From Chitinispirillales bacterium (lineage in GTDB: Bacteria; Fibrobacterota; Chitinivibrionia; Chitinivibrionales; Chitinispirillaceae), in NCBI GenBank assembly GCA_031254105.1, contig JAIRVB010000039.1, positions 124,001 to 188,000 of the forward strand: DNA of 64,000 nucleotides, written 5' to 3'. Under the pieces are notes generated by a model, which worked only from the letters and a program-made list of their open reading frames with translations, ran no database searches and had not been told where the DNA came from. Shown here piece by piece: positions 51,129 to 62,759 of this stretch. The position numbers and the translations under genes are program-made. Each line of letters begins with the position of its first letter. Positions within the stretch are counted from its first letter, which is position 1.

Positions 51129-53897
51129 TTAATTTTTTTCTCCCACCAATTCCCGATACCTCCCCATCAACTCCGCCACAATCTCCGACTCCGTCATATC
51201 CTTACCAAATTTGTATAGCTTCATAACCGCCTTATCAAGAGCCTGATGAGCTTTCAGCAATACTGTTGGCATTGTCAGCGGGTCGTACAGGTCAGCAAGA
51301 CTGCTGTCTGGAAATTTTGTCCTTGCATCTAATACTACTTGCGCCAAATTCTCAATTGTAATTTTTTGCTCTTCGGTTACATTCGGCCAAGGGAAATTGT
51401 TATAAACAACCGTGTTTGAATATCTATAATCGCTTTTAAGCCGCCCACAAACTGCCCTTACCCATGCCATGTGGACATTTGAGGTTAAAACGCCAAAATG
51501 GTAGAGTGTCGCATTTGGAATGATTTTAACAAGATTGCTGCAAAGTATATCGGGTGTTAAAAACCCCATCGGAATATATTTTCGCCGTTCAGAAGATACT
51601 TCTGGAACAACAATAAAATTACCGTTGGAAATATTGGAAAACGCAAATTCCCGTGGAGTTTCAGCTAAATCTCTTGTAACTTGACGATTACTTTCAAGCC
51701 GAAATTGTTTTACTAACTCAACACGTTTAGAAGCTTCGGGCATAGCTCGAAGTTCAGCAGGAGAGCAATCTTTTAAGAGTAAAAAATAACGATAATAACG
51801 GTTAATAAATTCGTGAGAACCAACCCACGGACGAAACCATTTTTTTGCTTTAGGTTCAATTTTTAAAAAAGCATCTTTCTCTTCAGAAGAAAAAAGATAA
51901 TGTCCTCCATCAATCGGTTGATTACCAAGGCTCATAATTGGCACGTCACACAACGGCTTACTCCGGCTCTCAATAAAAATATTCGGCGCATCCACAAGAT
52001 AAGGATTAATATTTCTCGCCTTTATTATCGTCCCATCGTTTTCGTAAACGAAGTGATACCTGCCATAATTAACTTTTCGCGGTTCACTTACGCCTGTATT
52101 ATTATCGTCACCATCATCAAAAAGAGATATTTCCTCTGTCAAACAGTCGGACGTACTAAATCCTATAATTACACAATACACTGCTGCCTTGCCTTTCGCT
52201 TCGTTACTCCAAACAAAAGTGCGGTAAGCGAAATTAATTTTTACACTATATTCTTCAAAAAGCGGTTTCCACAATATTGCGACTTGTTCCCCTTGCGTTA
52301 TGCTGTTTGTCGAAACAAATGCACATCTAATATTTGTATTACGCATATAATTGACTGCTTTTTTGTACCATGCAGTAACATAATCCAAATTACCAACATT
52401 TTTGAATTTATCCCCAAAAATGCGTAATACATCATCTTTTTGCTCATGCGACATAATTCGCGCTCCCACAAACGGCGGATTCCCCAGTATATAACTCAAC
52501 TCCCTCTTTTTCACCACGCCTTCCCAGTCAATCCTCAATGCGTTTCCGTGTACAATCGTTGCGCTTTGTACAAGCGGCAGCCGCACGTAATAGCACCCGA
52601 ACAAATCAGACGCTTCCAGATTCATTTGATGATCTGTCAACCACATGCCGACACGCGCGATTTGACAGGGGAACTCTTCGTATTCAATCCCATAAAACTG
52701 TTCTACATTTACACGAAGCAGCCCCCACAAGATGTTAAATTCCAATTTGTTTTTACCGACTTTCTTTTTTAAAACCGCGAGTTCAAGTTTGCGCAACTCT
52801 CTATACGCGACAATCAAAAAGTTTCCGCATCCGCAAGCAGGGTCAAGAAATTTCAGCTCAGAGATTTTGGTATGAAATGCGTCAAGTCTTTTTGGGATAT
52901 TTTTAACCCGCTCAAGCTCTTCCCGCAAGCTGTCCATGAACAGAGGATTTATCACTTTTAAAATATTTTCTTCGCTTGTGTAATGAGCGCCGATTTCGCG
53001 CCTGTATTCCTTATCCATAACGCCCTGAAACATCGCTCCAAAAATAGCGGGTGAGATGCCGCTCCAATCGAATTTGGCGCAGTCAATCAGAGTATTACGC
53101 ATTTTTTCCGTAAAATCAAGAAACAGAAGCTGCTTTTCAAACAGGCCGCCATTTATGTATTTGAACTCTTGCAGTTCGGCAGACAGATTTGTCCTTGCTT
53201 TGTCCGGCGTATTCAGGAGCTGAAACAGATATGCGATTTTAAGCGACAGATCGGAACCGTCTTTTTTGGAATCTTCTATGTATTTCAAAAATGAGTGTTT
53301 AGGAAATATATCAGTATCTTGCGCAAAGAGGCAGAAAAGGAGCCTGACTAAGTAAACTTCCAAATTATTCCCCACGTAACCGCCCGCACTCAGTGCGTCA
53401 TGTAGTTTAGCCATCTTCTCGGCAGCTTTAACATTCGCTTCTATTTGTTCTTTTTGATACGGGTCTTCCTGTTTTTCCAAGAGACAGTTAAACAGATGTA
53501 AATGTTTTCGCAGTTCCTTTGTTTTGAATGCAATTTTCTTTTTACCAAAATCAAGAATTATGGTTTCAAAATCGCATACCATAAAAATTTGTGGAATATC
53601 CTCTGGGGGCAAAAACAGCATATACTCTTTGAGCTGCTCAAAGGCTTTGTCTAAGTCTTTACCTCTGGCTTTCATCTCAATGGCAATTTTGCCCTTTATT
53701 AAGCAGTCAATACGCCCATGCTCACCGTTTCTTTTACGGGCATTAAACTCTAAATGCTCACTTGGGATAATCGTTATTCCAAAGACCTCTAAAAAATCCC
53801 TCAAAAATATCTGAGATTCTTTCATTTCAAAACTCGCGTTTTCCCACTTCTTTGAGAAAGCGATGGCAAGAGATGTGATTTTTTTGGGAGCGGTCAT
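51129..53897 (-). CDS. Type IIG restriction-modification enzyme
   Basis: A 922-residue bifunctional enzyme. N-terminal PD-(D/E)XK nuclease: GRIDCLIKGKIAIEMKARGK gives Asp64, Glu74 and Lys76. Then an Eco57I-like N6-adenine methylase: LDPACGCGNFLIVAYRELRK (SAM, about 350), a helical spacer, and YILGNPPFVGAR (NPPF catalytic motif, about 473). The C-terminal 300 residues hold the target-recognition part (ISNGNFIVVPEVSS, YRYSNTVVYNNFPWP). Cutting and methylation in one chain need no separate methylase. It overlaps the YhcG-like gene by four bases and is the second gene of the operon. Target sequence unknown. Confidence 0.88.
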   Translation of the reverse strand: MTAPKKITSLAIAFSKKWENASFEMKESQIFLRDFLEVFGITIIPSEHLEFNARKRNGEHGRIDCLIKGKIAIEMKARGKDLDKAFEQLKEYMLFLPPEDIPQIFMVCDFETIILDFGKKKIAFKTKELRKHLHLFNCLLEKQEDPYQKEQIEANVKAAEKMAKLHDALSAGGYVGNNLEVYLVRLLFCLFAQDTDIFPKHSFLKYIEDSKKDGSDLSLKIAYLFQLLNTPDKARTNLSAELQEFKYINGGLFEKQLLFLDFTEKMRNTLIDCAKFDWSGISPAIFGAMFQGVMDKEYRREIGAHYTSEENILKVINPLFMDSLREELERVKNIPKRLDAFHTKISELKFLDPACGCGNFLIVAYRELRKLELAVLKKKVGKNKLEFNILWGLLRVNVEQFYGIEYEEFPCQIARVGMWLTDHQMNLEASDLFGCYYVRLPLVQSATIVHGNALRIDWEGVVKKRELSYILGNPPFVGARIMSHEQKDDVLRIFGDKFKNVGNLDYVTAWYKKAVNYMRNTNIRCAFVSTNSITQGEQVAILWKPLFEEYSVKINFAYRTFVWSNEAKGKAAVYCVIIGFSTSDCLTEEISLFDDGDDNNTGVSEPRKVNYGRYHFVYENDGTIIKARNINPYLVDAPNIFIESRSKPLCDVPIMSLGNQPIDGGHYLFSSEEKDAFLKIEPKAKKWFRPWVGSHEFINRYYRYFLLLKDCSPAELRAMPEASKRVELVKQFRLESNRQVTRDLAETPREFAFSNISNGNFIVVPEVSSERRKYIPMGFLTPDILCSNLVKIIPNATLYHFGVLTSNVHMAWVRAVCGRLKSDYRYSNTVVYNNFPWPNVTEEQKITIENLAQVVLDARTKFPDSSLADLYDPLTMPTVLLKAHQALDKAVMKLYKFGKDMTESEIVAELMGRYRELVGEKN

Positions 53898-54964
53898 TTA
53901 GTTACTGCCTTAATTTTCTTCGCGTTCAACTTCTGCGATTTACCCTCTTTCACTTTAATCATCGCGTTAGATATTTCACACAAACGCTTTTTCAACAATT
54001 TTTTATCGGGCAGTTCCAACCTGTATTTAGAAACTAATGTCGGCGAAATGGTGCGGCTCATTGCGTATTCTACTACTTGTTCGTCTGCCGTGGCGCATAA
54101 GATGATTCCGACGCTTGGGTTTTCGTTCGGTTTTTTGTAATCTCTGTCCAATGCTTCCAAGTAGAAGTCCATTTTGCTGATATATTCGGGCGTAAACTTT
54201 CCTCTTTTCAACTCAAACGCAACAAGACATTGCAACCCTCTGTGAAAAAAAAGCAGGTCTAAAAAGAAATCGCTGTTTCCAACTTGTATTTTTATCTCTT
54301 TGCCAAGAAATGAAAAATCTTTGCCTATTTCCAACAGAAAGTTTTTCATGTTTTCTACGAGAGCGTTTTGCAAGTCGTTTTCCGTGTATCCGCCTGGCAG
54401 ATTCAGGAACTCTAAAACGTAGGTGTCTAAAAATGGATTGGCTCTATCTTTGGGCATGTTTGCGGGCAATGCTTTGTTTTCGGATAAGGCAGCTCTCTGG
54501 AAATACGCGCTTTCGAGCTGTCTGTCCAATTCTCTGTATGTCCATTTTTCTTCAATGGATTTTTTGATATAAAAGTGCCGCTCTTTGGGGCTTTTTGCGG
54601 CGCTCATAATAAGCAAATGGTTAGCCCAGCTTAATTGCGTCAGCAGTGCTGACGCAATTGGGTCGTCATTGTATGTTTCATAAAATCTCCGCATTCTTTC
54701 AAGACCACGTTTATTAAATCCTCTCAAATCGGGATGATTTTGTTTGAGGAAATTTGCGGCGTTATCTATATATTTATCTCCCCAGAAATGCTTTTTGGTT
54801 TCACGGCTCAAATGTTTTCCAATGTTCCAATAAAGTGAAACAAGTTCTTCGTTGATTTTACGTAATGTGTTGTTTCGGGCGGTTATAATTAATTCAACTA
54901 TATGGGAGAAGTTTTCTTGCCCGGCAAGCGCAGTCGAGTTTTTTGTTTTTACTTTTTTAGTCAT
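53894..54964 (-). CDS. YhcG/DUF1016 family PD-(D/E)XK nuclease
   Basis: A 356-residue DUF1016 protein. The N-terminal DNA-binding region (NEELVSLYWNIGKHLSRETK, then GFNKRGLERMRRFYETY) precedes the nuclease: DFFLDLLFFHRGLQCLVAFE, LKRGKFTPEYISKMDFYLEA with Asp, Glu-x-Lys-like LKRG and the following helix. The C-terminus is Lys-rich. It is the first gene of the operon and overlaps the type IIG gene (ATGA). Family members are often found next to restriction systems; whether they cut invading DNA or repair is not settled. Confidence 0.88.
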   Translation of the reverse strand: MTKKVKTKNSTALAGQENFSHIVELIITARNNTLRKINEELVSLYWNIGKHLSRETKKHFWGDKYIDNAANFLKQNHPDLRGFNKRGLERMRRFYETYNDDPIASALLTQLSWANHLLIMSAAKSPKERHFYIKKSIEEKWTYRELDRQLESAYFQRAALSENKALPANMPKDRANPFLDTYVLEFLNLPGGYTENDLQNALVENMKNFLLEIGKDFSFLGKEIKIQVGNSDFFLDLLFFHRGLQCLVAFELKRGKFTPEYISKMDFYLEALDRDYKKPNENPSVGIILCATADEQVVEYAMSRTISPTLVSKYRLELPDKKLLKKRLCEISNAMIKVKEGKSQKLNAKKIKAVTK

Positions 54965-55645
54965 AAAGCCTGTTTCACCGTTTCCAATTCAATTTCTTTG
55001 CCTGCAATACCTTCAAACAATTGTTTTTTATGTTCAAGAATCAAAAATATAACATTTTTTCTTAGAGTCAATACATTTGTCGTTTTTTGCGCCATATTTC
55101 ATCCAGCAAACGGGGTTCTTGTTTTTGACTTTTGCTTTTTTAGAGATGTTGTTGAAGCGGGCAGATTCCTACCTGTCAGCAGGTAAAACGCTTGCACGAC
55201 AAACTCTTGTTTTTGATTTTGATGTTGATAGAACTGACCGCTTGCGCGGACGGGCACCGTCCGCGGGTAAGGTGTTTGCTCGAACGATTCTTGTCGTTGA
55301 CTTTTGATTTTAGAAAAATGCTGTTAATGCGGTCAGATTCTTATCTGTCCGCGGGTAAAATGTCTGCTCGAACGACTCCTGCTTTTGACTTTTGCTTTTA
55401 GAGAGATACAGTTAATGCGGACAAATTCCTATCTGTCCGCGGGTAAGGTGTTTACTCGATCGCCTCTTGCTTTTGACTTTTATGGTTTTGTTTATTGAAC
55501 CGAAAGCAGATTCTCTGTATGCAGCTACAGCCCATTGTTTATATTTATACCATGAAAAACGAGTTCATTTTATACCGTCCTCACGAGCTTACTGAGCATA
55601 TTGAGGTGATAATATACGCAGGATTATAAATTTAAGGATTATTTT
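54965..55645. other. Gap dominated by an island repeat array
   Basis: About 680 bases with array 55112-55483 and AT-rich single-copy DNA on each side (54965-55111 and 55484-55645). No gene or promoter I can support, other than the -35-like TTGACT words that recur inside the repeats. Confidence 0.5.
55112..55483 (+). repeat. Island repeat array of about four units
   Basis: Stems: GCGGGCAGATTCCTACCTGT (about 55157), GCGGACGGGCACCGTCCGCG (about 55246), GCGGTCAGATTCTTATCTGT (about 55330) and GCGGACAAATTCCTATCTGT (about 55418). Linkers GCTTTTGACTTTTGC and tails GTGTTTGCTCGAACG. The first stem carries mismatches, the others are well paired. Confidence 0.85.
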
Positions 55646-56682
55646 ATGAACAACGACATTATCCATAATCAAGATTATAAAAATTGGTCAGAGTTCATTT
55701 TAAACAAGATAAAACTTGCCCATACAAATGCTGCGTTCAAGGTAAATGTTGAGATGTTAAACTTGTATTGGGAAATAGGAAACTCTATTATTGGCAGGCA
55801 AAAACAAAACGGTTGGGGCAGTAAGGTAATCGAATTTCTCGCAGCCGATTTAGCGAAAAATTTCCCGGAGAACACCGGGTTTTCTGTGCGTAATCTCAAA
55901 TATATGAGGGCTTTTGCAGAGGCTTATCCGCAGTTTCCAATTGTGCAGGCGCCGCTTGCACAATCAGAAAATCAATTCGTGCAAGTGCCGCTTGCGCAAA
56001 TAACATGGTATCACCATATCAGCCTGCTAACCAAAGTAAAAGATACCGCGGAGAGAGCGTTTTACATAGCCGAAACCGCTAAAAATGAGTGGAGCAGAGA
56101 TGTAATGCTTTTGCAGATACAAAGTAATCTATATGCAAGAAAAGGGAAAGCATTAAACAATTTTAAGAAACACTGCCTGAATACCAATCAGATTTGGCAA
56201 AAAGCATCTTCAAAGACCCATATCATTTTGATTTTTTAACGCTCTCCGATAAAATAAAGGAACTTGAAATTGAAAAGCTATTGATTCAAAAGATTACTGA
56301 CTTTTTGTTGGAGTTAGGAAAAGGATTTGCTTATGTCGGCAGGCAATATCCTATTGAAGTTGACAATACCGACTACAAAATAGACCTCCTGTTTTATCAC
56401 ACTATATTACATTCTTATGTTGTAATCGAACTCAAGGCCGGAGAGTTTTTACCAGAATACATTTCTAAACTTAACTTTTACATTAGCGCTGTTGACGATA
56501 AACTGAAAACACCTGCCGATGAACCTACAATCGGCCTATTGTTATGCGCTTCAAAAAGTAATGTAAAAGTTGAATATGCAATGCGCGGCTTATCTAAACC
56601 ATTAGGAGTTGCCTCTTATCAATTAGAACAATTAATGAGAGAAAATATTGAAAAACTTGAAGAATCGGGCAATGAAGAATAG
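55646..56682 (+). pseudogene. YhcG/DUF1016 nuclease, frameshifted
   Basis: Two overlapping frames of one gene. The first (from ATG 55646) gives NNDIIHNQDYKNWSEFILNK to LYARKGKALNNF; the second starts in a shifted frame with TLPEYQSDLAKSIFKDPYHF and includes TDYKIDLLFYHTILHSYVVI and ELKAGEFLPEYISKLNFYIS of the nuclease. One base appears to be missing near 56171 (after AATTTTAAGAA). Either a real frameshift, separating DNA-binding and nuclease halves, or an assembly error. The repeat arrays on both sides isolate it. It belongs to the same family as 53894-54964 but is well diverged from it. Confidence 0.85.
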
Positions 56683-57341
56683 TGAGAAAATAAAATCTGC
56701 ACCTGGATAAGGTGTTTGTTCGACTGCCTCTTGCATTTGACTTTTGATTACAGAAAGATACAGTTGATGCGGGTAAATTCTTATTTGTCCGCGGGTAATA
56801 CGCTTACTCGACCGGCTCTTGCTTTTGGCTTTTGATTTTTGAAAGATACAGTTGATGCGGTCAGATTCCTATCTGTCTGCGGGTAATGTGCTTGCTCGAC
56901 TGATTCTTGCCTTTGACTTTCGATTTTGGAAAGATACAATTGAAGCGGTCAGATTCTTATCTGTCCGCGGATAAGGTGTTTACTCGACTGATTCTTGACT
57001 GATTCTTGCTTTTGATTTTTACTGTTGGTAGAACGATGCTGTTTGCGCGGTCGGGCACCGTCCGCGGGTAATGTGCTTGCTCGACTGATTCTTGCTCTTG
57101 ACTTTTGCTTTTAGAAAGATACAGTTGATGCGGACAGGTCTTACCTGTCCGCGGGTAGGGTGCTTGCTCTACTGGCTCTTGCTTTTGATTTTTGTTTTAT
57201 GAGCGGCACTGAACTTAGGATAGTGTTTTTGCGAAAATAACGATGTTTAGATGGATATTTTACTATATTGTAGAACATGTGTGGAATGAGGATGTTGTGT
57301 GTATTTGGAAGTTAGCGGCAAAGGAACATTACTGATAATAT
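56683..57341. other. Gap dominated by the longest repeat array
   Basis: About 660 bases, of which 56705-57198 is repeat. The remaining 140 bases ahead of the ATPase gene are AT-rich and may hold its promoter (for example TACTATATTG around 57262), but I cannot assign boxes. Confidence 0.45.
56705..57198 (+). repeat. Longest island repeat array, about five and a half units
   Basis: Stems: GCGGGTAAATTCTTATTTGT (about 56778), GCGGTCAGATTCCTATCTGT (about 56856), GCGGTCAGATTCTTATCTGT (about 56945), GCGGTCGGGCACCGTCCGCG (about 57048) and GCGGACAGGTCTTACCTGTC (about 57131). One unit has an internal duplication of ACTGATTCTTG. Spacing between stems averages about 88 bases. Confidence 0.87.
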
Positions 57342-59951
57342 ATGAACACAACAAATAGTAATAGCGACTATTCGCAAGTAGAGTCTCTTGAAACTGCAAT
57401 TAAAGAATTTGCAGAGAAACTTCCCTATTGGGCAAAGTATCTTGCAAAGAAAATTTTGTCTGAAAATACTATTTCTGATAACGATATTGATAACTCATAT
57501 TCATATTTACTTGAAAATTTAAAACTAAAAGAAGAGACTCAAAAACCTGATATTTCAATTAACTGCAATTCTGCAAATACAACAAACTATAAATCTGATT
57601 TATTTCTTACCAAACTTGAAAATGTAGAAGGTGTAAACGCATTAGTAGAAAATCAAACAATAGAATTTAGTCCCAACCTGACTATCATTTATGGTGCAAA
57701 TGGCTCAGGAAAATCAGGATATGTTCGATTGTTAAAAAATGTGTTTTATTCTAAAGCTCCTGAAAAAATTTTACAAAATGTTCATATTGATAGTGGACAT
57801 AAATCTGTTAGTGCAAAATTTACTTTTAAATCAAATGATACAGAGATTCCGTTAAATAATGCGAATAAAGATAATGTGGAATTTAAACAGTTTGCTGTTT
57901 TCGATGGAAAAAGCGCTATAAGCCACCTTGAACAAAAAAATGAATTTGAATTTCGTCCAAGTGGATTGAATTTTTTTGCAAATTACACAAATGCGATTAA
58001 GCGAGTTGAAGATAAACTCAATGTTGATATTCAGGGTAAATCAACGCAAAATGATTTTTCTATTTTGTTTGATGGAGATTCTGAAATAAAAACTTTTGTT
58101 CAAAATCTAAATGCTCAGACAAAATTTGACGATATTAAAAGATATACTCCTTTTTCTGACGAGGATAAAACCAAAAAAGAAGATATTCAAAAAAAATCTG
58201 ATGACTTACGTTTGATTTTATCAAGGAAAAATGAGGAAATACTGAAACTTGAAAATATCAAAAAACTATTAACAGAAAACAAAACTGCAATAGAAAGACT
58301 TAATCAGATTTTCACAACAGAAGCTCTTGTAAGAGTTAAAGCAGCAATAAACGATTGCTTGACAAAAGAAGTCACTGCAAAAAATGAAGGTATTGAAAAC
58401 TTTAAAACAGATAAAATTCAAGGTATTGGAACTGTTGAATGGAAAAATTTTATTATATCTGCTGAAACATTTGCAAAAAAACAAAATATCAAAAATAATT
58501 TATATCTGCAAAAAGAAAACAACTGTTTGTTTTGCCTGCAACCACTTTCGGAAGATGCTGAAAAACTGATTGCCAACTATTGGATTTTCATAAAAAGTGT
58601 TGCGGAGCAAAATGCAAAAAAAGCACTGGAAACGCTTAATAATATTAAACAAAAATTTGAACAATTAAATTTTGATTTATTTCCCGCAAATAACACGCTT
58701 ACTACTTGGCTAACTGAAAAATATCCAAATGAATTAGAAACATTAAAACAAACACTATCTGAACAAAAAGCACTTGCTCAAAACATTATTTCTGATATTC
58801 AAAATAAAACAGTAAGTGAAAGAGTGGAGATAAAGATTGATATTGAACAACACACCATAATTGAAACGGCTATTGACGCTTCTATAAAGTCTCTCAAAGA
58901 AGATGAACAAAATAAAGAATTAGATAATCTATTGAAAACAAAGACATTTCTTGAACACAAAGAAAAATTCAATACGTATTTTTCAAAGTTTGAAATATAT
59001 GTCGATAATCAAGTTTGGATAAAAAAGGCAAAAAAAGCAGATTTTGCTAAACGCAAAATAACAGACACTGAAAAAAACTTATCAAACAAATTTTTTAATC
59101 AAAAATATATTGACAATTTTAATAGTGAGTGTAAAAAACTTAATGGAAGTTTTGGAATTGAAATCAATCACACAGGTTCGGCAGGAAAATCATACAGGCA
59201 ACTTAAATTAAAAGGAAATAGTCCCAATACCATATTGAGCGAGGGAGAGCAAAAAGTAATTGCTATTGCCGATTTTCTTGCCGAAATGCAATTGTCCGAA
59301 ATAAATAGAGGGTTTGTTTTTGACGACCCTGTTAATTCATTAGATAATGATCGAAAAAAACAAATTGCGCAAAGGTTGGCATCGCAAGCCACTGCAAAAC
59401 AAGTGATTGTTTTTACACATGATTTAGTTTTTGTATCAGATATATTAACTTATAGCGAAAATTCACAATTACCATTTTTATGCCATTGGATTGAAAATCG
59501 AAATAACAATCCTGGACAAATATGGTTAGAAAATGCACCTTGTTATGAAAAAAAATATCGAAACGCAGAACTTGTGAAAAAAATATACCTAGACTGCAAT
59601 AATAATTGTCCTCCAACGCAAAGAGAAATGTTATTAAAGCAGGGATTCGCAGCATTAAGAACTTGTTATGAAGTTTTAGTAATCAATGAATTATTTTGCA
59701 ATGTGGTACAGCGTTATAATGAACGAGTAAGCGTTGATTCTCTTTCAAAAGTAATTATTACTGATGAAATTAAGAACGAATTGGCTGATAGTTTTGCACA
59801 ATGTTGTAGATATATGGAGGGACATACACATAGTGATAAGTACGCATACCAACAACCGGAACCTATAAATCTCAACGAAGAAATTCTGAGATATGAATCA
59901 ATAAGGAAAATTATTAAAGATGCGAAAAAAACAATCAGTATCAATAAATAA
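57342..59951 (+). CDS. ABC-type (SMC-like) ATPase with HEPN-like C-terminus
   Basis: An 869-residue protein. Walker A GANGSGKS (118-125), a zinc-knuckle-like NNCLFCLQPLSEDAEKL (about 395), long coiled coils, ABC signature ILSEGEQKVIAIADFLAE (about 631) and Walker B RGFVFDDPVNSLD (about 658), then KQVIVFTHDLVFV. Residues about 750-869 are helical and hold CRYMEGHTHSDKYAY, where Arg and His fit a HEPN RNase motif. The layout resembles the RloC/PrrC anticodon nucleases. It directly precedes an AvaI/BsoBI-like restriction-modification pair with 13 bases to the nuclease gene. Its likely job: an RNase that acts when restriction fails (inferred). Confidence 0.75.
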   Translation: MNTTNSNSDYSQVESLETAIKEFAEKLPYWAKYLAKKILSENTISDNDIDNSYSYLLENLKLKEETQKPDISINCNSANTTNYKSDLFLTKLENVEGVNALVENQTIEFSPNLTIIYGANGSGKSGYVRLLKNVFYSKAPEKILQNVHIDSGHKSVSAKFTFKSNDTEIPLNNANKDNVEFKQFAVFDGKSAISHLEQKNEFEFRPSGLNFFANYTNAIKRVEDKLNVDIQGKSTQNDFSILFDGDSEIKTFVQNLNAQTKFDDIKRYTPFSDEDKTKKEDIQKKSDDLRLILSRKNEEILKLENIKKLLTENKTAIERLNQIFTTEALVRVKAAINDCLTKEVTAKNEGIENFKTDKIQGIGTVEWKNFIISAETFAKKQNIKNNLYLQKENNCLFCLQPLSEDAEKLIANYWIFIKSVAEQNAKKALETLNNIKQKFEQLNFDLFPANNTLTTWLTEKYPNELETLKQTLSEQKALAQNIISDIQNKTVSERVEIKIDIEQHTIIETAIDASIKSLKEDEQNKELDNLLKTKTFLEHKEKFNTYFSKFEIYVDNQVWIKKAKKADFAKRKITDTEKNLSNKFFNQKYIDNFNSECKKLNGSFGIEINHTGSAGKSYRQLKLKGNSPNTILSEGEQKVIAIADFLAEMQLSEINRGFVFDDPVNSLDNDRKKQIAQRLASQATAKQVIVFTHDLVFVSDILTYSENSQLPFLCHWIENRNNNPGQIWLENAPCYEKKYRNAELVKKIYLDCNNNCPPTQREMLLKQGFAALRTCYEVLVINELFCNVVQRYNERVSVDSLSKVIITDEIKNELADSFAQCCRYMEGHTHSDKYAYQQPEPINLNEEILRYESIRKIIKDAKKTISINK

Positions 59952-59964
59952 CGATAATGAGTTT

Positions 59965-60912
59965 ATGAAACATATTATCAAAACTTCCGAAGATTTAGTA
60001 ACCTCGAAAGAGCAAACGCGGGCAGGTTTCATTGCATTTGCATTAGAAAAAAACCGTCGTTCGACACCGATAATTGAAAATGCAAAATCGCTCAAAATCC
60101 TGGCTTCAAAAGCAAGAACAGCAACAGATCTGCTTAAAATAATTGAAATACGACCTGCACTTTTAACGGCCTCAGGATTATCCGATAAAGCTTTAAATCA
60201 TTTTACAGAAGAAGATAAAAATAACGCTATTTTGGGCTTGATTGAAAAGTTTCTTGAGCCGGCAGGCAAATACTTTGTTGATGAAGTTGTATATAGATAC
60301 CTGCTCATAAAAGGCGATTCGTTGGGCGGTTCTATGCGAAATATCGTTGGAGCTATTGCACATCAAAAATTTGTCAGGACGCTTTTGTCAAATCTTTCTA
60401 TTTCCGGCGCAGATTACCAATGGCTTAATAACAAAACTAAAAATTGGGAAAAAAAACCAGCTGATGACTTAGCTATTGAGGAGCAGCTGAAAGCTTTGTC
60501 GTGGATAAATTCCAAAAGAAAAATTCGCGTTTTAGCGTTTAATCTGAATATTCCTATTGTCAAAAACAATATTGATATTTGTCTTTTTAATGCTGATATT
60601 GAAACTTATAATAATGGCGCAATTGTAAATGCGCCCGAAAAAATTCTGATGTTGGGTGAACTCAAAGGCGGTATTGACCCTGCAGGTGCGGATGAACATT
60701 GGAAAACGGGAAATACCGCGCTTAATCGTATTAGAGAATCGTTTGGTCAAAATGGTTTGAAAATCGAAACATCTTTTATTGCGGCTGCCATTGAAAAGAA
60801 AATGGCAACTGAAATTTTTGTACAACTTCAAAATAAAACATTATCTAATGCCGCCAATTTGACTATTGATGAGCAAATTGTGAGTTATTGTGATTGGTTG
60901 CTAAAACTCTGA
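59965..60912 (+). CDS. AvaI/BsoBI-family type II restriction endonuclease
   Basis: About 315 residues from ATG 59965, the length of AvaI (315). Family sequence: SKEQTRAGFIAFALEKNRRS, RPALLTASGLSDKALNHFTE, KGDSLGGSMRNIVG and the catalytic part NNIDICLFN, then LMLGELKGGIDPAGADEHWK. Asp (about 204), Glu-x-Lys (about 232-234) and His (about 245) align with the BsoBI active site (Asp212, Glu240, Lys242, His253) at a constant offset of eight. The family recognises CYCGRG. The frame also opens at 59920, inside the ATPase gene, but that extension lacks family sequence. Confidence 0.88.
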   Translation: MKHIIKTSEDLVTSKEQTRAGFIAFALEKNRRSTPIIENAKSLKILASKARTATDLLKIIEIRPALLTASGLSDKALNHFTEEDKNNAILGLIEKFLEPAGKYFVDEVVYRYLLIKGDSLGGSMRNIVGAIAHQKFVRTLLSNLSISGADYQWLNNKTKNWEKKPADDLAIEEQLKALSWINSKRKIRVLAFNLNIPIVKNNIDICLFNADIETYNNGAIVNAPEKILMLGELKGGIDPAGADEHWKTGNTALNRIRESFGQNGLKIETSFIAAAIEKKMATEIFVQLQNKTLSNAANLTIDEQIVSYCDWLLKL

Positions 60913-60922
60913 ATGGTGAAAT

Positions 60923-62425
60923 ATGGAACAACTGAATTTATTTGACATACCAGTTAATGCTGATAAGTGGCAGGTACAAAATTTTTCGGCAGATAATTTT
61001 GGTGAGCAATCCGTCCGAATGAGTTTGGAGCGGAAACTTATTAATATAACCGTTGTGTCAGATATGTTTAATCGGCAAAATGTTAGTTATCAATTAAGTA
61101 AAAATGATACTTTGCACCGTTGGCTAAAATACAAAGAAGGATTTTCGGCAGACTTGGTCAAAAGGTTATTAAAAGAATTTAATATAAAGCAAGGTGATAC
61201 GGTTTTAGATCCTTTTGTCGGCTCAGGAACAACTTCTTTGGTCTGCAAAATGCAGGGTATAAACAGTATCGGCTTTGATATTCTACCTATGTCAAAAATT
61301 GCCATTAAAGCGAAGCAATCCGTTTTAGAATATGATTTGATAGAAATAAAACGAGTTATTTCGGAAATCAAAAATTTAGAAATACCTGAAAATTATAATA
61401 GTCGAACACCGCATATAACCATTACTGACGGCGCTTATTCCGAAAATACAGAAAAGGAGATTGCATTTTTTACTGAATGGAATAACGATAATGAATGTTC
61501 TGAAATAACAAAAAATCTTGTAACTCTCTGCATTTTAAACTCTTTGGAAAAAATAAGCTACACCGCTAAAGACGGGCAATTTTTGCGTTGGGATTACCGT
61601 AGTAAAAAAATGCTTGAATCTGCTGAACATCGAAAAAAAAATGGAAAATCGCCCTTGGTTATTCGTTTGGATAAAGGGGATCTTCCCGCTTTGAAACAAT
61701 CATTGTTAGATGAATTAAACAGTGTATCTATTGATATTTCTTTTATTCAGAAAAGCGCGACATCTAACACAGGTAAATTAAATTTTATTGAAGGCAGTGC
61801 GCTTTATGAATTGCCGAAACTCGAAAGTAATTTGTTAAACGCCGTGATCACTTCACCCCCTTATTGCAATCGGTATGATTACACAAGAACTTACGCTTTA
61901 GAATTAGCATATTTGGGTATTACAGATGAAAAAATAAAGAAGCTGCGTCAAGAATTATTATCCTGCACAGTGGAAAACAGACCCAAAATTGATTATATCA
62001 AAGAAAAATACATTGCATTATGCAAAGAAAAAGACTTTAATCAAATAATGAAAATTGTTGAGAACAACCAAACATTAGCTGAGATTAATCATTCTCTGAA
62101 TGAGCGAAGCAAGAATGGAGATATTAACAACAGAGGCGTTTTACGAATGGTTAACGGTTACTTTCAGGAATTGACTTTTATTTATGCCGAGCTGTTTCGT
62201 TTGTGTAAATCAGGGGCAAAAGTGGCTTTTGTGAATGACAATGTCCGTTATGGCGGTGAGGTTATTTCAGTAGATTTCATTTCTACGGAATTGGCGGAAA
62301 AAATCGGATTTAAACCTGTTAAAGTTTATTCTTTGAAACAGCAAAAAGGCAATAGCAGTCAACAAATGGCAAAATTTGGACGAGTACCCTTGAGAAAAAG
62401 TATAACTGTTTGGGAAAAACCATAA
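60923..62425 (+). CDS. DNA methyltransferase, cognate to the AvaI-like nuclease
   Basis: A 500-residue amino-methyltransferase. SAM motif VLDPFVGSGTTSLVCKMQGI (about 94), then a 200-residue spacer that probably holds target recognition, and catalytic motif VITSPPYCNRYDYTRTYALE (about 308). SPPY is usual for N4-cytosine methylation, matching M.AvaI and M.BsoBI, which are N4-cytosine enzymes, though N6-adenine cannot be excluded. It follows the nuclease by 10 bases. Together with the upstream ATPase-HEPN gene it forms a three-gene operon bounded by repeat arrays. Expected to protect CYCGRG sites. Confidence 0.87.
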   Translation: MEQLNLFDIPVNADKWQVQNFSADNFGEQSVRMSLERKLINITVVSDMFNRQNVSYQLSKNDTLHRWLKYKEGFSADLVKRLLKEFNIKQGDTVLDPFVGSGTTSLVCKMQGINSIGFDILPMSKIAIKAKQSVLEYDLIEIKRVISEIKNLEIPENYNSRTPHITITDGAYSENTEKEIAFFTEWNNDNECSEITKNLVTLCILNSLEKISYTAKDGQFLRWDYRSKKMLESAEHRKKNGKSPLVIRLDKGDLPALKQSLLDELNSVSIDISFIQKSATSNTGKLNFIEGSALYELPKLESNLLNAVITSPPYCNRYDYTRTYALELAYLGITDEKIKKLRQELLSCTVENRPKIDYIKEKYIALCKEKDFNQIMKIVENNQTLAEINHSLNERSKNGDINNRGVLRMVNGYFQELTFIYAELFRLCKSGAKVAFVNDNVRYGGEVISVDFISTELAEKIGFKPVKVYSLKQQKGNSSQQMAKFGRVPLRKSITVWEKP

Positions 62426-62759
62426 TATAAATATTAAGAAAGATGCAATTTAAGCGGGCAGGTTCTTACCTGTCCGCGAATAAAATGTTTACTCGGAGAA
62501 ATCTTGATTTTTACTGTTTACTGTTGATAGAACGATACTGCTTGCGCGGACGGGTACCGTCCGCGGGTAAAATGTTGGCTCGACCACCTTTTGTTTTTGA
62601 TTTTTTTTCGGGGTGCCCGAAGACTATGGGCTGAGGGCAGGGGGCGGTGTTTCACATGACTTTTCTAAGCGGCGCCCCCTCAGATATATAAAGGCTGATT
62701 TTGAACCGAATGACTCTGTCATTGAGTTTTGCAAGAAGTCTGATATATCCTTATTCATA
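62426..62759. other. Right border of the defence island
   Basis: An island repeat array at 62436-62608, then GC-rich DNA with GGGGCGGTG and TAAGCGGCGCCCCCTCAG, and about 60 bases before the larE stop. No gene seen. Base composition changes here from AT-rich back to the core. Confidence 0.5.
62436..62608 (+). repeat. Last island repeat array
   Basis: Stems GCGGGCAGGTTCTTACCTGT (about 62454) and GCGGACGGGTACCGTCCGCG (about 62546), tails TAAAATGTTTACTCG and TAAAATGTTGGCTCG. Same orientation as all others. Confidence 0.85.

Follow-up and report, generated by a model that had tools for sequence, protein, structure and literature searches.

Does an RloC-type gene that stands directly ahead of a type II restriction-modification (R-M) pair guard that pair, or does it encode a defence of its own? 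The question is raised by one locus in the window, by which we mean the whole 64,000-nt stretch of Chitinispirillales DNA that was analysed. Three intact open reading frames on the plus strand, to which all features below belong unless stated otherwise, span positions 57342-62425 with intergenic gaps of 13 and 10 nt: an ABC ATPase with a zinc hook and a tRNase-like C-terminal domain (57342..59951, 869 aa), an AvaI/BsoBI-family type II restriction endonuclease (59965..60912, 315 aa) and a cognate type II DNA methyltransferase (60923..62425, 500 aa). The rloC-type gene is probably co-transcribed with the R-M pair; a promoter and terminator scan, in which the number of sites was not above that in shuffled sequences, gives no evidence for or against an internal promoter. 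No tRNA genes lie in the 64-kb window. Published associations of RloC are with type I or type III loci (8/72 in 2008; PMC2610378) and, for RloC-like ABC-HEPN genes, with diverse R-M systems together with RhuM (2013; PMC3710099). We found no report of an RloC in a direct type II operon in those portions of the open literature that were available, and to that extent the arrangement appears to be unreported.

The R-M pair itself is ordinary. The endonuclease aligns over its whole length with BsoBI (1dc1; phmmer E 2e-107) and is recognised by Pfam Endonuc-BsobI (PF09194, 464 bits, E 3e-139), while the adjoining methylase is a full-length match to the PADLOC type II methylase PDLC03224 (531 bits). 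Together with the coordinates, these matches confirm a sequence-only reading that had the ATPase heading an operon with AvaI/BsoBI-type nuclease and methylase genes, 13 bases apart. Judging from the family, the pair would cleave CYCGRG sites (C^YCGRG-type). An alternative in-frame ATG at 59920 would give an endonuclease of 330 aa overlapping the ATPase gene, but the start at 59965 is supported because homology with a related locus (L130, see below) breaks at 59964. The endonuclease is single-copy in the genome, and the AAA_13 ATPase family has one clear member there.

To characterize the first gene product, we aligned 73 homologues, drawn from viral contigs and plasmids as well as from whole genomes; phage records yielded no RloC match. 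RloC has been defined by ABC motifs, a CX2C hook, an R-X3-E-X36-52-H triad and a length of 658-897 aa (PMC2610378), and the window protein shows all of these. Its ABC motifs comprise Walker A (GANGSGKS, residues 118-125, 57693..57716; G118 in 71/73 and K124 in 73/73), the ABC signature (LSEGEQ, residues 632-637, 59235..59252), Walker B with the D-loop (VFDDPVNSLD, residues 659-668, 59316..59345) and, after these, the linchpin His693 (59418-59420). The zinc hook, C395-x2-C398 (58524..58535), lies within a coiled-coil insert with long helices on both sides. The Walker A Lys, both cysteines, the Ser of the signature SEG, the DD of Walker B and the linchpin His are common to all 73 homologues, and so the RloC-like ATPase with zinc cysteines seen by the sequence-only reading stands. 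The first two triad residues, R773 and E777 (59658..59672), are Arg and Glu in 72/72 comparable rows, with the R-x3-E spacing in 71/71 counted rows. The third, His828 (59823..59825), follows E777 after x50 and is the His of CRYMEGH, kept in 71/71 comparable rows. The triad as a whole is retained in all 71 comparable homologues, and the distance from Glu to His falls within the published 36-52 in 64 of 71. By this sequence definition the first gene encodes a recognisable RloC-type protein.

The window protein shares with the RloCs of Geobacillus kaustophilus and Acinetobacter baylyi the ABC ATPase interrupted by a coiled coil, the CxxC hook, the R-x3-E...H triad and the size, as well as membership of a mobile family that is sporadically linked to R-M genes. 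It differs in belonging to a longer subfamily of about 850-880 aa, with an extra N-terminal ~80 residues, the hook Cys at about 380-400, the triad Arg at about 760-790 and a Glu-to-His spacing of 48-53, and in sharing an operon with an orthodox type II system. In the short group the Cys lies at about 255-296 and the spacing is 37-40, which fits the Geobacillus RloC of Davidov and Kaufmann (triad R692/E696/H737, hook Cys291; PMC2610378); members of this group match the PADLOC PrrC profile. The window protein matches PADLOC PDC-S06 from end to end (433 bits), but PDC-S06 is an unnamed candidate label that takes in the long subfamily as well as the short canonical one and is also given to canonical AAA_13/PrrC-related members. 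Strict motif conservation thus assigns the long form of this large, unnamed candidate defence family to RloC. PrrC of the E. coli PrrC-EcoPrrI system likewise lies in an R-M operon and joins an ABC ATPase to an RNase triad at the C-terminus; however, PrrC proteins have 341-416 aa, carry no zinc hook and are invariably linked to type Ic systems. We rejected PrrC membership for the 869-aa window protein given its hook, its type II neighbours and the lack of a match to the PADLOC PrrC profile, even at E 10.

Pfam AAA_13 covers the ATPase only up to residue 715, and the C-terminus was therefore studied separately. The full-length AlphaFold2 model (mean pLDDT 83.2) shows a Rad50-like head with long predicted helices (273-354 and 404-488) flanking the hook; the best PDB match of the ATPase fold is Rad50 (E 2e-10), and the full-model search was so swamped by Rad50/SMC heads as to be uninformative on the C-terminus. 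Folded alone, the C-terminal domain (residues 733-869, 59538..59948), a predicted RNase domain, forms a helical bundle (pLDDT 83.6, pTM 0.76) in which R773 and E777 share one long helix and H828 sits just past another, a region of low confidence in the full-length model. Foldseek searches of the PDB and BFVD with this domain gave nothing significant (best E about 0.1). The HEPN proteins 4nqf, 1jog, 1wol, 1o3u, 2hsb and 8xeh appear only among the weak matches (E 0.47-1.7), alongside other four-helix bundles. The HEPN-type C-terminus suggested from sequence is supported by motifs, conservation and the predicted bundle, but a HEPN fold is no more than plausible. We rejected the route to HEPN through an Rx4H in CRYMEGHTH: the His of that motif is conserved, but only 20/71 homologues have an Arg 4-6 residues ahead of the His828 equivalent, so that R823 counts as variable; the Arg kept throughout is R773, 55 residues before H828. 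When the C-terminus was compared by hhalign with 15 RloC homologues of the short type, it reached a non-significant probability of 2%, so that by profile it is not alignable to the canonical group.

The neighbours of RloC relatives are varied. Type III R-M operons hold two of them (L007, 63% identical, and L042), and in type I loci relatives lie between hsdS and hsdR (L029, L030 and L060), with the order hsdM-hsdS-rloC-rhuM-hsdR in L030. Others stand beside Kiwa (L048) or SbcCD-like pairs (L055, L059, L031, L037 and L045), are borne on prophages (for example L046, 50%) or occur alone, and in about two thirds of those examined the operon contains no nuclease partner. In a 44-row tree, the six rows linked to R-M need six changes, which is the maximum. 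The clade of the window protein (five members, 100% support) includes neighbours as different as type II R-M, type III R-M, CBASS, a prophage and no direct partner. No other member is co-operonic with type II genes; the PstI-type pair near the RloC of L036 is convergent and 374 nt off. RloC-type genes thus exchange partners freely.

Three of these loci have features of their own. Between hsdS and hsdR, the hsd locus L060:3234-12937 encodes a long RloC-type protein of 860 aa and, in addition, a bona fide PrrC of 386 aa (PADLOC PrrC 478 bits), so that a single type I operon holds two presumed anticodon nucleases. In L011:7001-12129 a gap of 38 nt separates an RloC relative (54%) from the CBASS-like operon downstream of it, in which two different nucleotidyltransferases flank a 2TM effector. 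On staphylococcal mupirocin-resistance plasmids (L008:5928-8423) the RloC-type frame stops at 772 aa; as similarity continues for about 50 residues past the stop, this copy may be a truncated one that ends short of the triad His.

Viewed from the R-M side, the association did not recur. RloC was found near none of 12 other BsoBI-family loci in the stretches examined; two of the contigs end close by. Of these loci, 8 came from a set of 395 genomes belonging to another phylum (one of the 8 being a weak match), 2 from the window's phylum and 2 from plasmids. Viral contigs scanned for BsoBI relatives contained none. The closest of these loci is L130, from the window's phylum, whose endonuclease and methylase are each 81% identical to those of the window. 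DNA similarity between the two (78%) runs from window position 59964, one base before the endonuclease ATG, to 62430, just past the methylase stop. In L130 the rloC slot is occupied by a KAP P-loop NTPase of 1029 aa (L130:2551-6588) that ends 3 nt before the endonuclease. Because similarity is limited to the R-M genes and a KAP NTPase stands upstream, we regard the R-M pair as one module and the preceding gene as interchangeable; among carriers of this otherwise ordinary AvaI/BsoBI pair, only that gene varies. Third-position GC agrees with R-M as a separate module (0.197 for rloC vs 0.288 for the endonuclease and 0.301 for the methylase). L130 and the window form a natural pair, with the same R-M but KAP NTPase versus RloC in front, that is suited to testing the dependence of the first gene on R-M. 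In another BsoBI-family locus (L131:4327-6416), a C5-cytosine methylase, apparently split in two frames, takes the place of the usual methylase ahead of the endonuclease.

Altogether, we consider it likely that the first gene encodes an autonomous, DNA-break-triggered tRNase that sits as cargo directly upstream of a self-sufficient BsoBI/AvaI type II R-M pair. This reading builds on direct observations of gene order, spacing, the endonuclease and methylase families, the RloC motifs with their conservation, and partner swapping; tRNA cleavage and break sensing by the window protein are extended to it from distant homologues. The ATPase and zinc-hook part would sense linear DNA or double-strand breaks arising from infection and switch on the C-terminal tRNase, and translation would stop, presumably through cleavage of the tRNA anticodon loop, as performed by the R-x3-E...H domain of the RloCs studied so far. 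DNA cutting would then be the first defence and translation shut-off the second, and the protein, acquired as cargo, would need no physical contact with the R-M enzymes. The range of partners exchanged by the family (type I, II and III R-M, CBASS, Kiwa, SbcCD, prophage cargo) favours such an autonomous effector. The dissimilarity of the C-terminus to canonical short-spacing RloC in the hhalign comparison counts against it, as does the outcome of the Foldseek searches, in which no match was significant. We also gave some thought to a C-terminal bundle (R773, E777, R791, H828) that is not a tRNase at all, acting on other RNA or serving as a regulatory or dimerisation domain. The fold and profile comparisons with HEPN and PrrC, none of which was significant, and the low confidence with which the H828 region is modelled speak for it, but the strict conservation of three triad residues, with order and spacing as published, and a four-helix bundle with HEPN proteins among its weak matches make it unlikely.

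The sequence-only reading had instead proposed a guard. Its template is PrrC, which is silenced by the EcoPrrI restriction system and cuts tRNA when that system is inhibited; here the RloC-type protein would be bound and silenced by the BsoBI-type endonuclease or methylase and would cut tRNA when a phage inhibits restriction. The operon-like 13-nt spacing with the ATPase first would suit a guard, as would the relatives between hsdS and hsdR and in type III operons, yet the same guard was not recurrently linked to the same R-M type (0/12 loci, six separate origins), the nearest R-M relative has a KAP NTPase at this position, and the closest RloC relatives adjoin unrelated systems. Further, type II enzymes are not known to have a Stp-like phage inhibitor that could trigger a guard. 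The published RloC of A. baylyi also behaves otherwise: break inducers activate its tRNA cleavage and hsd mutants behave as wild type, from which the authors of that study concluded that the switch is internal to RloC, with R-M proteins neither silencing it nor mediating its break-induced activation (PMC3874168). Given this switch and the swapping of partners, an autonomous effector is favoured, and since relatives change partners so freely an independent second defence riding with R-M is more probable than a dedicated guard, which we now think quite improbable. A looser cooperation, in which ends that the endonuclease makes on incoming DNA are sensed by the RloC-type ATPase, so that restriction itself sets off tRNA cleavage with no physical guarding, is in keeping with the activation of RloC ATPase and tRNase by break inducers and by linear, though not by circular, DNA (PMC3874168), and with relatives that often adjoin nucleases making or processing ends (type I and III R-M; SbcCD pairs in L055, L059 and L031). 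It is possible but, we feel, on the unlikely side: some two thirds of relatives lack an operonic nuclease partner, and CBASS and Kiwa neighbours make no DNA ends. Control of an RloC-type tRNase by an orthodox type II pair, whether through silencing or through firing by the ends it makes, is doubtful; if true, the guard or relay principle of type I systems would extend to type II. As a counterpoint to autonomy, association with restriction may have been favoured repeatedly, which would also account for the six independent R-M linkages.

Finally, the cassette is bounded by tandem ~88-nt repeats upstream (56699..57224) and by two copies of the same family downstream (62434..62636). These repeats carry a GC-rich palindrome, form short tandems also at 55137-55494 and near 42.9, 43.8, 45.1 and 49.2 kb, and occur in about 30 places in the genome, clustered on three contigs. 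They bound successive cassettes: a type IIG enzyme with a DUF1016 protein, a split DUF1016 gene, and the RloC-BsoBI-methylase genes. The split gene (55646-56682) encodes a DUF1016/YhcG-type nuclease in two overlapping frames, with the N-terminal and nuclease domains respectively, and is probably the product of a frameshift. In the same defence island, an MmeI-like type IIG restriction-methylase adjoins a same-strand DUF1016/YhcG nuclease on the minus strand (51129-54964).
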